Source: Cinnamomum chago
Lineage: Eukaryota > Streptophyta > Magnoliopsida > Laurales > Lauraceae
NCBI GenBank assembly: GCA_038049695.1
Contig: CP142456.1
Span: 75,105,422 to 75,169,421 of the forward strand
Direction of reading: 5' to 3'
DNA: 64,000 nt
In this document: positions 22,751 through 30,343 of the stretch, piece by piece
Layout: every line of letters starts with the position of its first letter
How positions within the stretch are numbered: position 1 is the stretch's first letter
Program-made: the position numbers and the translations under genes
The notes under the pieces: generated by a model
What the model was told of the DNA's origin: nothing
What the model saw: only the letters and a program-made list of their open reading frames with translations
Database searches by the model: none

Positions 22751-23983
22751 CAGAAAGTCTATCCACCCCGGCTTTGTATCCCGACTTTGTATCCCGATCC
22801 GACGTGGTGGTCCAGCTGGACTCCAGCTGGACCTCACGTTGAAAGAAACAAAACGAGAGAAGCGCTATTGAGAGTGTTGAAATCTGCTGCCCGCCTGAAA
22901 TTTCAAGTTGAAAACGCAGGGGAGAAAGGGAAAACGCAGGGGAGAAAGGGGAAAGCAGGGGGGAACGAGAAACCTCCTCAACGATCGACCCCGACCTTCT
23001 GCAAATCTCCAGAGCAGAGAGCTCATGCCTTCCTCTCTCTCAATCGCGTGCGCAGATTGACTCTTTCCCTCTCTCGATCGATCGGCTCTGCGAATCTCAG
23101 CTGGAGGAGGTCGTCCCTCATAATGGGAACCAATTCGTCCCCATAGTCTTCTCTCTCATCTCGTTGGAGAAAACCAAACCATCTTTCGAGCAAAACAGAC
23201 ACTGCTGGTTCAAAAAACAACACGATCATCGGATACGAAGTACACTGAGCAAGGTAAAAAAAACGCTTCTTCATTTCCTGTTTCTCTTTTCCCCAAACGT
23301 CTTATAAGAATCGAGAATCCTTCCTTTTTAGTCATTTCATTTCTACTTCTGATACAATTGTAAGGGCTCGTTTGAACTCCCAACATTTTTTTTTCTCCTA
23401 TTCCAAGCAGATCCTTTCTTCTTCTTCCTCTACAACTTGATGTTGATGTTTTCATGGGCATCCTGTTTGGTGGGGTCTTAGAATTACACGCAATTGTTCC
23501 ATGCCAACCAAGTGTTTGATGGAATGCCCCATTGATTTTCAGTTCCCTTTTCTTCTTCTTCTTCTTTTTTTTAACTGTTATCGTTTTCAAGGAAGATGTT
23601 TGAGCTAAATTCTCTCAGTGTGATCAGTGATCCTTCTGAAAACTTTCTGTTTTTTCTGGACATAAAAATTGATTGAATACTGATTTGCAACTATATTGCA
23701 TTTGTAATTTATGTGAATTTGACACGGACATGTGGGGGCAATGTTGCTGCATCCATTTGAAAAACCCAACGCAATGGCACCTCCATAAATCTGTAGGATA
23801 TCAAGTTTTTTTGGGGGTGTTTACAATTTACATGGGGCAAGAGGGAAGAGAATGCCAGATAAAGGTTCTGTGGCGACTATTTTGTCAGTCTGTAATACTC
23901 AATCCATTGGTGAAAAACTTTATCCTCCATTGGAGTTTAACACCATATGGTGTGAATAGTAATCAAATCATGTAATGTGGGTC
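22751..23983. repeat. Left inverted arm of the Mutator-like element
   Basis: 1233 bp, the reverse complement of 29111-30343 apart from three bases seen near 23692, 23717 and 23776. The outer 100 bp hold a doubled CTTTGTATCCCGA and a doubled CCAGCTGGACT, the kind of subterminal repeats transposases bind. Further in lies a CT-rich tract and a sequence ending TGAGCAAG|GTAAAAAA that looks like a 5' untranslated exon with a splice donor. The arm may therefore bring its own promoter to whatever lies inside. Open frames seen here occur identically in both arms and have no recognised domain. Confidence 0.9.
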
Positions 23984-24229
23984 TATCACAACCAAAAAAT
24001 CAATGGTTGGTGAAGATCTACATGGTTCAAATTTTGTTTTCATAAATGGGATGGTGCACAGCTGTTTCTTCTGTAGGCTTAAACTCATTTCTTGTTGCTG
24101 CATAATAGGTTTGCTGATTCTGTATATGCTATTTTAGATGTCAATTTTTGTAAAAAGGTTATTCATTGTTTTCTTGTGCATTACTCTGCATTTGTGACTG
24201 TTTTTATGATCCAAATGATAAAAATGCAG

Positions 24230-24336
24230 GTACCTTGTCCCAAGTGACTTGACCAATGGCCAATTTGTATATGTAATTCGCAAGAGAATCCAATTAAGTG
24301 ATGAGAAGGCAATATTCATATTTGTTGACAATACCT
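24230..24336 (+). pseudogene. ATG8: Captured ATG8 exon fragment
   Basis: After a splice acceptor (AAATGCAG at 24222-24229) the plus strand encodes [18 protein letters not shown], then [16 protein letters not shown]. This matches the penultimate part of plant ATG8, the ubiquitin-like autophagy protein (family consensus [34 protein letters not shown]). The acceptor sits where ATG8 genes have an intron. Homology stops after FVDN; the C-terminal exon with the lipidated glycine and the N-terminal exons were not found, so no functional ATG8 can be made. The piece lies just inside the left arm in the same direction as that arm's putative promoter. Confidence 0.88.
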
Positions 24337-24918
24337 TTGCAATCTTGAGAAGCATGAGAGGGAAGGGAGATGGTGATGGGATGATGCCAAGGCAAAAGTG
24401 TGTGGACTCCACAAAGGAAACATTGAACAGGAGAAAGCATCCCAACTTAATGGAAATAAAACTGGTCTTGCACAGGAGAAGGCATCAAATGGATGGATTT
24501 TTGTTTCAAATGAATGGATTTTTGTTTCAATGTTTACTGTGTATTGTTGTATCATTAACTATGAATGGTTGCTTCAAATGAATGGATTTTTGTTTCAAAT
24601 GAATGGATGTTTCACAGGAGAAGGCATCACTTCTCCCTTTGCTTTTTTTTTTTTTTCTTCCTACCCCTTTGTTTTGTGTTTGGTATAGAAGAGATCTTGT
24701 TGGGTAGATGAATCGATTTTTCCATAATTCTGAATCTTGGATGAACAGGGCTTTGTGTGAATTTAGGTTTCTTTGGTAATTATGGGAAACATTGCAAATT
24801 AAGCAATAACCTTGTATTTGAATTGGGCTATGTTGTTGTGGTATTTGGGGGAGAATTTTAATCCTTAACATGGCTATCTTGTATCCCAACAGGGCAGATG
24901 TGGAACACAGCATGTTCC

Positions 24919-25046
24919 TTCTATTAGTTGGTTTTAATTCTGTTCAATAATGCAGATACCTGACAGAAGTTATATTTAAAAAACCTGTCATCGTCTATAA
25001 TTAGCAAAATCAAATTATTGAACGGAATTAAAACCAACTAATAGAA
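24919..25046. repeat. Short inverted repeat at the left edge of the satellite array
   Basis: TTCTATTAGTTGGTTTTAA near 24919 is mirrored by TTAAAACCAACTAATAGAA ending near 25046; the matched arms, about 30 bp, run on to an AATAATG/AATTATTG pair. The outer end of the right arm is the first base of the 188-bp array. This is possibly the end of another small element. Confidence 0.6.
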
Positions 25047-27907: not shown

Positions 27908-28361
27908 AAGAGGCATATGAAGCCATTTACTTCAAGATCTTCACAAACAAAAGAAACTTTTTGTCAACCCAGTGTAAACGAACAATAGATACATAATATT
28001 CAATTTAAATCATAAGATTCAACTCATAAAATCTAAGAAACTAATAACAATTCCTTTCATAGAACAGTCTTTGCCAATCAAATAAAGGACTACTGGCATA
28101 ATTACTTAATTAGACATTACCATATATGCTTACTTAATAAGTAACTTTTTCATCAGCCCAGTGTAAATGAGCGATAGATACATAAATTTGTCGTGTGTAG
28201 ATGATCCGTGACATAAATTAAATCTATAAATAAAGGCGACGAAGAAAAAATTTAAAAAATTTGTTTATTGCATAATAAATCTTAATAAGAATGGAATTTT
28301 ATTTGTGGCACAAAGTAAATCTCTAAGTAAAGGTGGTCAGGCAAAAATAAATTGTTCCCAC

Positions 28362-28960
28362 CTTAGGCCACAATCAACTATGCGTCCTAGCTCCACAGCA
28401 TATTCTCCAGGACGCCCTGGCTCAAACGAAGGATCAGCCATGGGTGAGAACTCAGTGAATATAGAAAGAGTCCCTTCATTTGGCCGATCTCGATAAGGTT
28501 GCACCAGTTGAGAAGTCACAAAGGCCATGACATGAGTTTGGCCAAGCTGCACCTCCGATGAACCCTCTTCACTGCACACGTCACACTAAAATTTCAGCTA
28601 ATTATACTATTATTCTTTCTTTTTGAGCTGTTACAATGTCAAGAAAAGACAAAAGAACCACATCATATGTGCTAGATACAGCAATTATGGAAGATGAAAT
28701 TTGACTACTTCAATCAAGTCATTGGAGAAGATGGTTATGCAAGAGGGTTAACCTAGTAAACATACACCTGTGGCATTGTCCACTTGACAGATCATAATGG
28801 ATTATGAGAGAGAGAATACGTGCCTCCCAAACTTGATAGTTAATTCACGATAGTCAAAGGGGCGGCGGCCATCAACTCTAAGTTCTGAAAGCAATGCTTT
28901 CTCAATGAATTTCCTCTCATTGATGGTCATTCGACAGCTGTTAGCTGAACTTTGCTCCAT
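28362..28960 (-). pseudogene. RRP45: Captured first two exons of exosome subunit RRP45
   Basis: Minus-strand exon 1 (28960-28824) starts with ATG and encodes the N-terminus to ELRVDGRRPFDYRELTIKFG. Exon 2 (28571-28362) encodes SEEGSSEVQLGQTHVMAFV, then LVQPYRDRPNEGTLSIFTEF, then MADPSFEPGRPGEYAVELGR. This is the start of the RNase PH fold of RRP45, a core subunit of the RNA exosome. The frame is intact over 347 nt (115 codons). The intron between them begins GC (GAG|GCACGT) and ends AG, a rare but real class; using the nearby GT would break the frame. Exon 2 ends at a good GT donor, but later exons are missing, and a conserved Arg of the RxLRE segment is Cys. It lies just inside the right arm and reads inward from it. 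Confidence 0.88.
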
Positions 28961-29110
28961 TCAATTCCGGGCTCCTCTGAGACAACAATACCCAAAAAAA
29001 AATTAACTTGAATTAGGAGGAAGAAGGAGGACAAAGAAGATGATGATGATGACCATGAGAGAGAGAGAGGGAAAACAACATTGGTGAGCTTGAACTTAAT
29101 TGACAGACAT

Positions 29111-30343
29111 GACCCACATTACATGATTTGATTACTATTCACACCATATGGTGTTAAACTCCAATGGAGGATAAAGTTTTTCACCAATGGATTGAGTATT
29201 ACAGACTGACAAAATAGTCGCCACAGAACCTTTATCTGGCATTCTCTTCCCTCTTGCCCCATGTAAATTGTAAACACCCCCAAAAAAACTTGATATCCTA
29301 CAGATTTATGGAGGTGCCTTTGCGTTGGGTTTTTCAAATGGATGCAGCAACATTGCCCCCACATGTCCGTGTCAAACTCACATAAATTACAAATGCAATA
29401 AAGTTGCAAATCAGTATTCAATCAATTTTTATGTCCAGAAAAAACAGAAAGTTTTCAGAAGGATCACTGATCACACTGAGAGAATTTAGCTCAAACATCT
29501 TCCTTGAAAACGATAACAGTTAAAAAAAAGAAGAAGAAGAAGAAAAGGGAACTGAAAATCAATGGGGCATTCCATCAAACACTTGGTTGGCATGGAACAA
29601 TTGCGTGTAATTCTAAGACCCCACCAAACAGGATGCCCATGAAAACATCAACATCAAGTTGTAGAGGAAGAAGAAGAAAGGATCTGCTTGGAATAGGAGA
29701 AAAAAAAATGTTGGGAGTTCAAACGAGCCCTTACAATTGTATCAGAAGTAGAAATGAAATGACTAAAAAGGAAGGATTCTCGATTCTTATAAGACGTTTG
29801 GGGAAAAGAGAAACAGGAAATGAAGAAGCGTTTTTTTTACCTTGCTCAGTGTACTTCGTATCCGATGATCGTGTTGTTTTTTGAACCAGCAGTGTCTGTT
29901 TTGCTCGAAAGATGGTTTGGTTTTCTCCAACGAGATGAGAGAGAAGACTATGGGGACGAATTGGTTCCCATTATGAGGGACGACCTCCTCCAGCTGAGAT
30001 TCGCAGAGCCGATCGATCGAGAGAGGGAAAGAGTCAATCTGCGCACGCGATTGAGAGAGAGGAAGGCATGAGCTCTCTGCTCTGGAGATTTGCAGAAGGT
30101 CGGGGTCGATCGTTGAGGAGGTTTCTCGTTCCCCCCTGCTTTCCCCTTTCTCCCCTGCGTTTTCCCTTTCTCCCCTGCGTTTTCAACTTGAAATTTCAGG
30201 CGGGCAGCAGATTTCAACACTCTCAATAGCGCTTCTCTCGTTTTGTTTCTTTCAACGTGAGGTCCAGCTGGAGTCCAGCTGGACCACCACGTCGGATCGG
30301 GATACAAAGTCGGGATACAAAGCCGGGGTGGATAGACTTTCTG
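29111..30343. repeat. Right inverted arm of the Mutator-like element
   Basis: 1233 bp, inverted copy of 22751-23983. The 127-bp spacer to the RRP45 start (28961-29110) is (GA)n-rich and leader-like. With the arm's putative promoter and spliced leader, the minus-strand transcript would run into the RRP45 exons. Confidence 0.9.

Follow-up and report, generated by a model that had tools for sequence, protein, structure and literature searches.

A Pack-MULE of Cinnamomum chago whose long terminal inverted repeats combine a family core with host RRP45 DNA

The window analysed here is a 64,000-nt forward-strand stretch of the Cinnamomum chago genome (CP142456.1, positions 75,105,422-75,169,421), and the subject of this report is a transposable element at 22751..30343 within it. 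Sequence comparison indicates that this focal element is a non-autonomous Mutator-like element (MULE) of the FAR1/Jittery type, a grouping that comes from the FAR1, MULE and SWIM domains of the transposase of a relative and not from the focal element itself. Its terminal inverted repeats (TIRs, also referred to as arms) are composite, with positions 1-457 representing the TIR core of the family and positions 458-1233 representing 776 bp of host DNA from the RRP45 gene, which accounts for 63% of the arm. The captured DNA was most likely copied from the right arm to the left. We consider it highly probable that the element as a whole arose by capture of RRP45, right-to-left copying of the arm and later movement with a transposase supplied in trans.

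Structure and identity of the element

In the window, the arms are located at 22751-23983 and 30343-29111; each is 1233 bp long, and they align without gaps and with 3 mismatches. The element is flanked by a perfect 9-bp repeat, TTCATTTAT, at 22742..22750 on the left and 30344..30352 on the right, and this 9-mer has no further occurrence on the + strand of the 64 kb. Read as a target-site duplication (TSD), it implies that the element has moved in the past. The joined flanks were searched for an empty site within the same genome, a 1.06-Gb assembly of 14 contigs (contigs are labelled C1 to C12 below, the focal element lying at C6:75.13 Mb), and among the best 40 of 81 candidates the matches were limited to the site itself, an inverted match nearby and repeats of 31-35 bp.

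A first-pass annotation of the window had described equal arms with three differences, a perfect 9-bp repeat, an ATG8 exon, a two-exon GRF gene, two RRP45 exons and a tandem array, and all of these were found where it had placed them. It had reported no transposase inside, which agrees with the present search, where no transposase similarity was detected within the focal element (best E 2.9). Its assignment to the MULEs is likewise borne out: a TSD within the 8-11 bp range, long TIRs, and a relative with a MULE transposase and related ends are all present, the relative encoding FAR1, MULE and SWIM domains. The host gene pieces it had recognised have likely parents elsewhere in the genome, at C3:28.12-28.13 Mb for RRP45 and at C6:72.21 Mb for ATG8. 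With such fragments and no transposase of its own, the focal element classifies, at the level of sequence, as a Pack-MULE.

Origin of the 1233-bp arms

Searching the genome with the arm gave 41 matches (best 40 of 102 candidates). Among the matches listed, the full-length arms are the two of the focal element, one at C1:94321189 (95%) and one at C5:5605614 (90%). Places on C3 and C9 match the arm only from about position 456 or 474 and then continue straight into RRP45, and copies on C12 (C12:3.18), C8 and C5 (C5:3.66) match it only up to position 454-458. Because these matches begin and stop near position 457, the arm can be divided into a family TIR core and an RRP45-derived part; the latter, the inner 63% of each arm, had gone unrecognised in the first-pass annotation. 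On the left, the core occupies 22751..23207 (+ strand, 457 bp, terminus CAGAAAGTCTATCCACCCCGGC), and the inner part, at 23208..23983 (+ strand), comprises the end of an RRP45 5' untranslated region (5'UTR) exon and sequence of the 5'UTR intron, with 98.5% identity to the RRP45 locus at C3:28.128 Mb and exon/intron limits set by eye. On the right, the core occupies 29887..30343 (- strand, 457 bp) and the RRP45-derived inner part 29111..29886 (- strand).

The inner end of the right arm runs on into RRP45, continuing into the remaining captured piece at 27951..29110 (- strand). The left arm leaves RRP45 at GTC (23981-23983), a 3-bp microhomology common to both joined sequences, and then enters sequence also present in the C12 and C5 copies. 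Since the right arm is continuous with RRP45 and the left arm is not, the RRP45 part of the left arm was most likely acquired from the right arm. At the join between TIR core and RRP45, TG or TGG is common to both sides, and AAGAA is common to both sides of the join between the GRF side and RRP45, at about 27951-27955.

All 3 differences between the arms lie in the RRP45-derived inner part (3/776), with 0/457 in the TIR core; by comparison with 5 to 6 further sequences per difference, one is private to the left arm and two are private to the right. The two arms differ by 0.24%, whereas over the RRP45 piece the focal element is 1.5-1.7% from its siblings and 2.4% from the parent; the arms therefore appear to have been made alike after the RRP45 capture. 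The near identity had been attributed to recent movement or gene conversion, of which it can be retained that copying made the arms alike or that movement was recent.

Two other origins of the second long arm were weighed against copying within the element. Lengthening by unequal exchange or inversion between two element copies is unlikely; the mosaic nature of the TIR indicates exchange between copies and siblings with the same RRP45 piece exist, but one round of copying that jumps at 3 bp accounts for the left junction, no other copy compared is as close to either inner arm as the two are to each other (3 differences), and two of the four full-length arms among the matches listed are those of the focal element. 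Near-identical inverted repeats are also prone to misassembly, and the second arm could in principle be a false inverted copy, but we consider this extremely improbable given that both outer ends carry the perfect 9-bp repeat, that the left arm has its own inner junction with family sequence, and that the arms show three differences.

Capture of RRP45

The captured RRP45 piece is 1.94 kb long and extends from near the end of the 5'UTR exon (splice sites by eye) into intron 2. The part beyond the right arm contains the end of the 5'UTR intron, coding exon 1, intron 1, exon 2 and part of intron 2, with a start codon near 28960 and exon 2 at about 28571-28363 (- strand). Exons 1-2 match Pfam PF01138 (E 4.3e-14), and their top match in PDB is an Rrp45 chain. 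The nearest RRP45 place is C3:28.128 Mb, which is 2.4% different, and seven others on C3 and C9 are 3.4-6.5% away. This parent locus (C3:28.12-28.13 Mb) contains further exons beyond the captured piece, identified by eye from translations, which we take to be those of RRP45. In a tree of 11 sequences, the focal piece and the copies at C1:94.32 Mb and C5:5.61 Mb, the two siblings, stand apart from the 8 other RRP45 places with a support of 96, and the siblings pair with a support of 99. Among the places scored (best 40 of 106 candidates), captured RRP45 is confined to the focal element and these two siblings. Pack-MULEs preferentially capture the 5' ends of host genes, and the RRP45 capture of the focal element holds the 5' end.

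A further route to such a structure is the joint mobilisation of two neighbouring MULE ends flanking RRP45, a tandem-insertion model in which the arms would have been long from the start. Passages of PMC8903248 propose that Pack-TYPE elements capture DNA through joint mobilisation of neighbouring insertions, and RRP45 does lie between a TIR and the element interior. However, RRP45 is bounded by a TIR core cut at 457 and by a GRF segment cut at about 27955, both with shared bases, no two outward TIR ends or old TSD are present around RRP45, and the left arm has only the RRP45 part that mirrors the right arm, so that we regard joint mobilisation as improbable here.

Separately, RRP45 pieces are clustered in the genome, with five places at C3:26.7-28.1 Mb and three at C9:9.8-10.0 Mb among the matches listed. 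A fusion joining RRP45 exon 2 in frame with GRF exon 2 was considered and rejected, the two being out of phase as judged by eye.

A transposase-bearing relative

The arm search, which the first-pass annotation had proposed as a way to find other copies and an autonomous partner, returned other copies, and a candidate partner is the transposase-bearing relative at C1:28412571-28423191. This element is 10,621 bp long, with a perfect 9-bp TSD (CTAATTCTT) and arms aligning over 288 columns at 87.5%. Its terminus is CAAAAAGTCTATCGAGCCT, compared with CAGAAAGTCTATCCACCCC in the focal element, and stretches of the arms of the two elements are 81-97% alike. A 653-aa open frame contains FAR1 (PF03101), MULE (PF10551, E 2e-33) and SWIM (PF04434) domains, and it is followed first by the ATG8 segment, then by the 188-bp array and finally by the GRF gene, with the transposase and GRF genes facing each other.

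The transposase search gave 82 matches (best 68 of 2810 candidates), among which at least six frames without stops, the C1 query's own place included, cover at least residues 1-649 of 653; some of these six are 711-785 aa long. Ten transposase pairs showed ratios of nonsynonymous to synonymous substitution rates (dN/dS) of 0.43-0.68. A transposase match lies upstream in the same relation at a minimum of 10 of the 30 GRF places other than the focal one, and two more GRF places with a transposase, on C8 and at C6:19.57 Mb, were seen in fetched DNA. The family also includes a 29.7-kb element at C8:684793-714512, which has a 10-bp TSD and a transposase gene interrupted by roughly 18 kb of other sequence.

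Origin of the remaining cargo

The first-pass annotation had taken the pieces of three host genes to be gathered by the focal element. This has to be revised, as ATG8, the array and GRF are already carried by the transposase-bearing relative and by other copies. On the comparisons made, RRP45 is the one later capture, and ATG8, the array and GRF are inherited parts of a subfamily.

The ATG8 segment, at 24060..24332 (+ strand), consists of an intron end and a partial exon from 24231, which matches Pfam PF02991 (E 4.8e-13) and is also confirmed by a PDB sequence match. A protein search located ATG8 at 12 places, of which six lie within MULE copies (window, C12, C2, C1, C5 and C7) and six elsewhere. 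One of the latter, C6:72211925-72212029, is 96% identical to the focal segment over 24117-24332 (216 bp) and 84% over 24060-24120; because of the 96% identity and the next ATG8 exon that follows it, this place is the likely parent. The alignment of cargo to parental genes suggested in the first-pass annotation thus succeeded for both genes, RRP45 being 2.4% from its C3 locus and ATG8 96% identical over 216 bp to C6:72211925. The join after 24332 is identical in the window, C12, C1, C5, C7 and C8 (C8 with an internal deletion, C2 outside the alignment), and since it is common to six copies it points to one old ATG8 capture. Of the ATG8-side segment, only 24380-24612 is matched by the copies with a full-length transposase at C2:102.5 and C7:45.2 Mb, and ATG8 seems to belong to a subfamily only.

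Between the left arm and ATG8, 23984..24059 (+ strand) is family interior from downstream of the lost transposase gene, with homology from 23981 onwards to the copies at C12:3.17 and C5:3.66. A family intergenic segment (24333..25043, + strand) leads to the 188-bp tandem array at 25044..27070 (10.8 copies by TRF), a family part located between the 3' ends of both genes. The GRF zinc-finger gene, at 27452..27916 (- strand), faces inward from the right arm and encodes 114 aa in exons 27916-27788 and 27667-27452 with a GT-AG intron (Pfam PF06839, E 3.4e-9). GRF, transposase or the intergenic segment lies close by at 28 of 40 array loci (window included), and this recurring association of GRF, transposase and array identifies the array and GRF as family parts.

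For the GRF selection test, 20 loci were tried and 19 matched; with two partial loci (L047 and L055) excluded, 18 sequences including the window were aligned. Their mean pairwise dN/dS is 0.49, and half of the sequences (9 of 18) are free of in-frame stops if gaps are disregarded, but all 17 non-window sequences have at least one gap in exon columns. The focal GRF gave dN/dS above 1, with few changes, against 4 of 5 near copies, and purifying selection is therefore not claimed for it.

Arm length and target sites in the family

The arms had been described as far longer than typical. This holds against the range in the literature, as given in the portions of PMC6446971 on TIR length, and fails against the element's own family, whose arms include ones of about 1182 bp, 1236 bp and 1415 bp or more. 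Aligned arms measure 1182/1212 bp in C8 (95%), at least 1415 bp in C12:16 (95%), 1236 bp in C10:9.0 (97%) and 742 bp in C10:53 (93%), and C7 and C1 align over 288 columns. Long arms, ranging from about 288 to 1415 bp or more and differing in their inner modules, are thus, as far as alignments tell, a family trait. The outer part of about 270-460 bp is common to all members, in patches, and the inner modules comprise one in C8, C12:3.18, C5:3.66 and C10:9.0, one in C12:16, one in C10:53, and RRP45 in the focal element. No protein domain was found in 10 frames in or near the inner arm modules of other copies.

The short flanking repeat expected around other copies was examined by eye at 6 other elements. 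It recurs as 9 bp at C1:28.41, 10 bp at C8, 8/9 at C10:53 and 8 bp at C12:16, and as 9 bp at C7 only after shifting the right end by 5 bp. The exact terminus CARAAAGTCTATCCACCCCGRC occurs 14 times, compared with 0 in a backward control. A lone 198-bp TIR end (L017, C2:104115437-104115634), 99% like the focal arm, lies between inverted TCTCTCTTCCGTACAA copies as far as read.

Proposed sequence of events

The transposase-bearing form has the order TIR, FAR1/MULE/SWIM transposase, ATG8 fragment with the 188-bp array, GRF and TIR, with convergent, inward-facing genes. In an ancestor of the focal element, the 1.94-kb RRP45 piece would have replaced the DNA between GRF and the right TIR core, through microhomologies of 2-3 bp and 5 bp. 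Subsequently, DNA synthesis at the left end would have copied the right arm, including 776 bp of RRP45, a step observed only in the focal element among the copies found. This synthesis would have jumped at the GTC microhomology into the old interior beside ATG8, thereby removing the transposase and the old inner arm and leaving two 1233-bp arms with 63% host DNA. We infer the order and direction of copying from the junctions, and the process may have been gap repair or template switching. The focal element would then have moved at C6:75.13 Mb, or its arms would have been made alike after moving, the 9-bp TSD being generated with transposase in trans.

Several observations weigh against this history. 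Compared with the two siblings, the arm diverges by 7.6% and 9.1% over its outer 300 bp and by only 1.8% elsewhere (summed); since the outer part diverges more, the TIR is a mosaic of more than one exchange, with the outer TIR exchanged at another time. By a uniform-base estimate, chance alone would give 2 bp of microhomology in 16% of joins and 3 bp in 5%, and only the 5-bp case is unlikely by itself (0.5%). The second TIR of the C1:94.32 and C5:5.61 siblings was not found in the 8 kb fetched for each; with one arm apiece, the siblings may be shortened and cannot prove that a one-armed state came first. In the C1 relative, a stop lies immediately before the start of the transposase frame, and this copy may be broken at, or lack, the transposase N-terminus. 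Finally, no TSD was seen at C10:9.0, one of the 6 other two-ended elements.

Comparison with known transposons

Like the Pack-MULEs described in sections of PMC3310237, the focal element is a non-autonomous MULE with host gene fragments between its TIRs and a 9-bp TSD; unlike them, it inherited ATG8, the array and GRF from a transposase-bearing form, and its captured gene forms the inner part of both TIRs. The same sections already report acquired DNA entering extended TIRs, citing Hanada 2009 and Lisch 2002 for extended TIRs. MULEs with extended or multiple TIRs resemble the focal element in having a TIR changed by added sequence, but the focal element has no tandem TIR, and a single case is resolved here by parent gene, siblings and three junctions (PMC3310237, in part).

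The transposase of the relative, with FAR1 on the N-terminal side, MULE, and SWIM on the C-terminal side, corresponds to the FAR1/Jittery-type MULEs of group 36 in the part of PMC6446971 that covers them. In contrast to that group, the present family has a convergent GRF gene and a 188-bp array, and its arms reach at least 1.4 kb, compared with 39-292 bp for plants in the table of that source. A second gene opposite to the transposase is known from MuDR, with mudrB, and from the barley MULE Hvu_Abermu, whose reverse second gene is ORFR and which seems autonomous (PMC9168764, relevant passages); the second gene here instead encodes, by its domain match, a GRF zinc-finger protein. Excerpts of PMC8277862 attribute Pack-TIR capture in animals to gap filling and template switching with microhomology. 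Our capture joints share the short microhomology, whereas the present element is a plant MULE and its captured piece is mirrored into the other arm. In a limited literature search, GRF zinc finger terms did not occur among the papers listed (15 of 140 in one set, 12 of 1,121 in another), which does not show their absence from print, and the three papers that combine two of Pack-MULE, ATG8 and RRP45 do not mention Pack-MULE.

The arms could also act as a functional hairpin, in which read-through RNA would form a 1.2-kb stem and yield small RNAs that silence the MULE family, and perhaps RRP45. The arms are inverted and 99.76% identical, the inner arm corresponds to the RRP45 5' region, and there is a precedent in Mu killer, proposed in passages of PMC3440606 to silence MuDR. 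The spacer, however, is 5.1 kb, the inner arm is seemingly mostly intron, so that little mature RRP45 mRNA would be matched, and other long MULE arms could act alike; we consider such a function quite improbable.

Genomic context

The left insertion flank, at about 22548-22712 of the window, contains an imperfect palindrome (79%), perhaps a small miniature inverted-repeat transposable element. Two pieces of a POT/PTR2 transporter gene at 13023-15244 (+ strand) likely represent a host gene about 7.5 kb upstream of the focal element. A young long terminal repeat (LTR) element is marked by 555-bp direct repeats at 4428-4982 and 8826-9380, 99.8% alike, with a gag-domain frame at 6523-7833 between them; a short repeat flanking this element was not clearly visible. 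Another LTR element near the MULE, at 17082-20619 (- strand), is represented by frames with reverse transcriptase (17082-17573) and gag (19900-20619) domains. Furthermore, many roughly colinear matches of 75-90% between about 41-50.3 kb and 53.8-64 kb indicate an old local duplication.

Implications

In the text of PMC6446971, as far as its treatment of TIRs goes, MULE TIRs span 14-500 bp, with up to 640 bp in its table, and the reason for this variation is described as not clear. The present case bears on that question: one TIR-lengthening step can be followed at single-base level from its donor gene, siblings and junctions, and further long-arm copies are available for comparison in this genome. 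A transposase-bearing form that holds a GRF gene and an ATG8 fragment means that a defective copy has not always gathered its cargo itself. More tentatively, and with somewhat less than even confidence, the inner arms of the family may be regularly rewritten, DNA beside one TIR core, host gene 5' ends included, being copied to the other end. If this is true, all four inner modules would be products of one process, and transposon ends would be built from host promoter-proximal DNA. The focal element itself illustrates one way in which MULEs can build their ends from host DNA.

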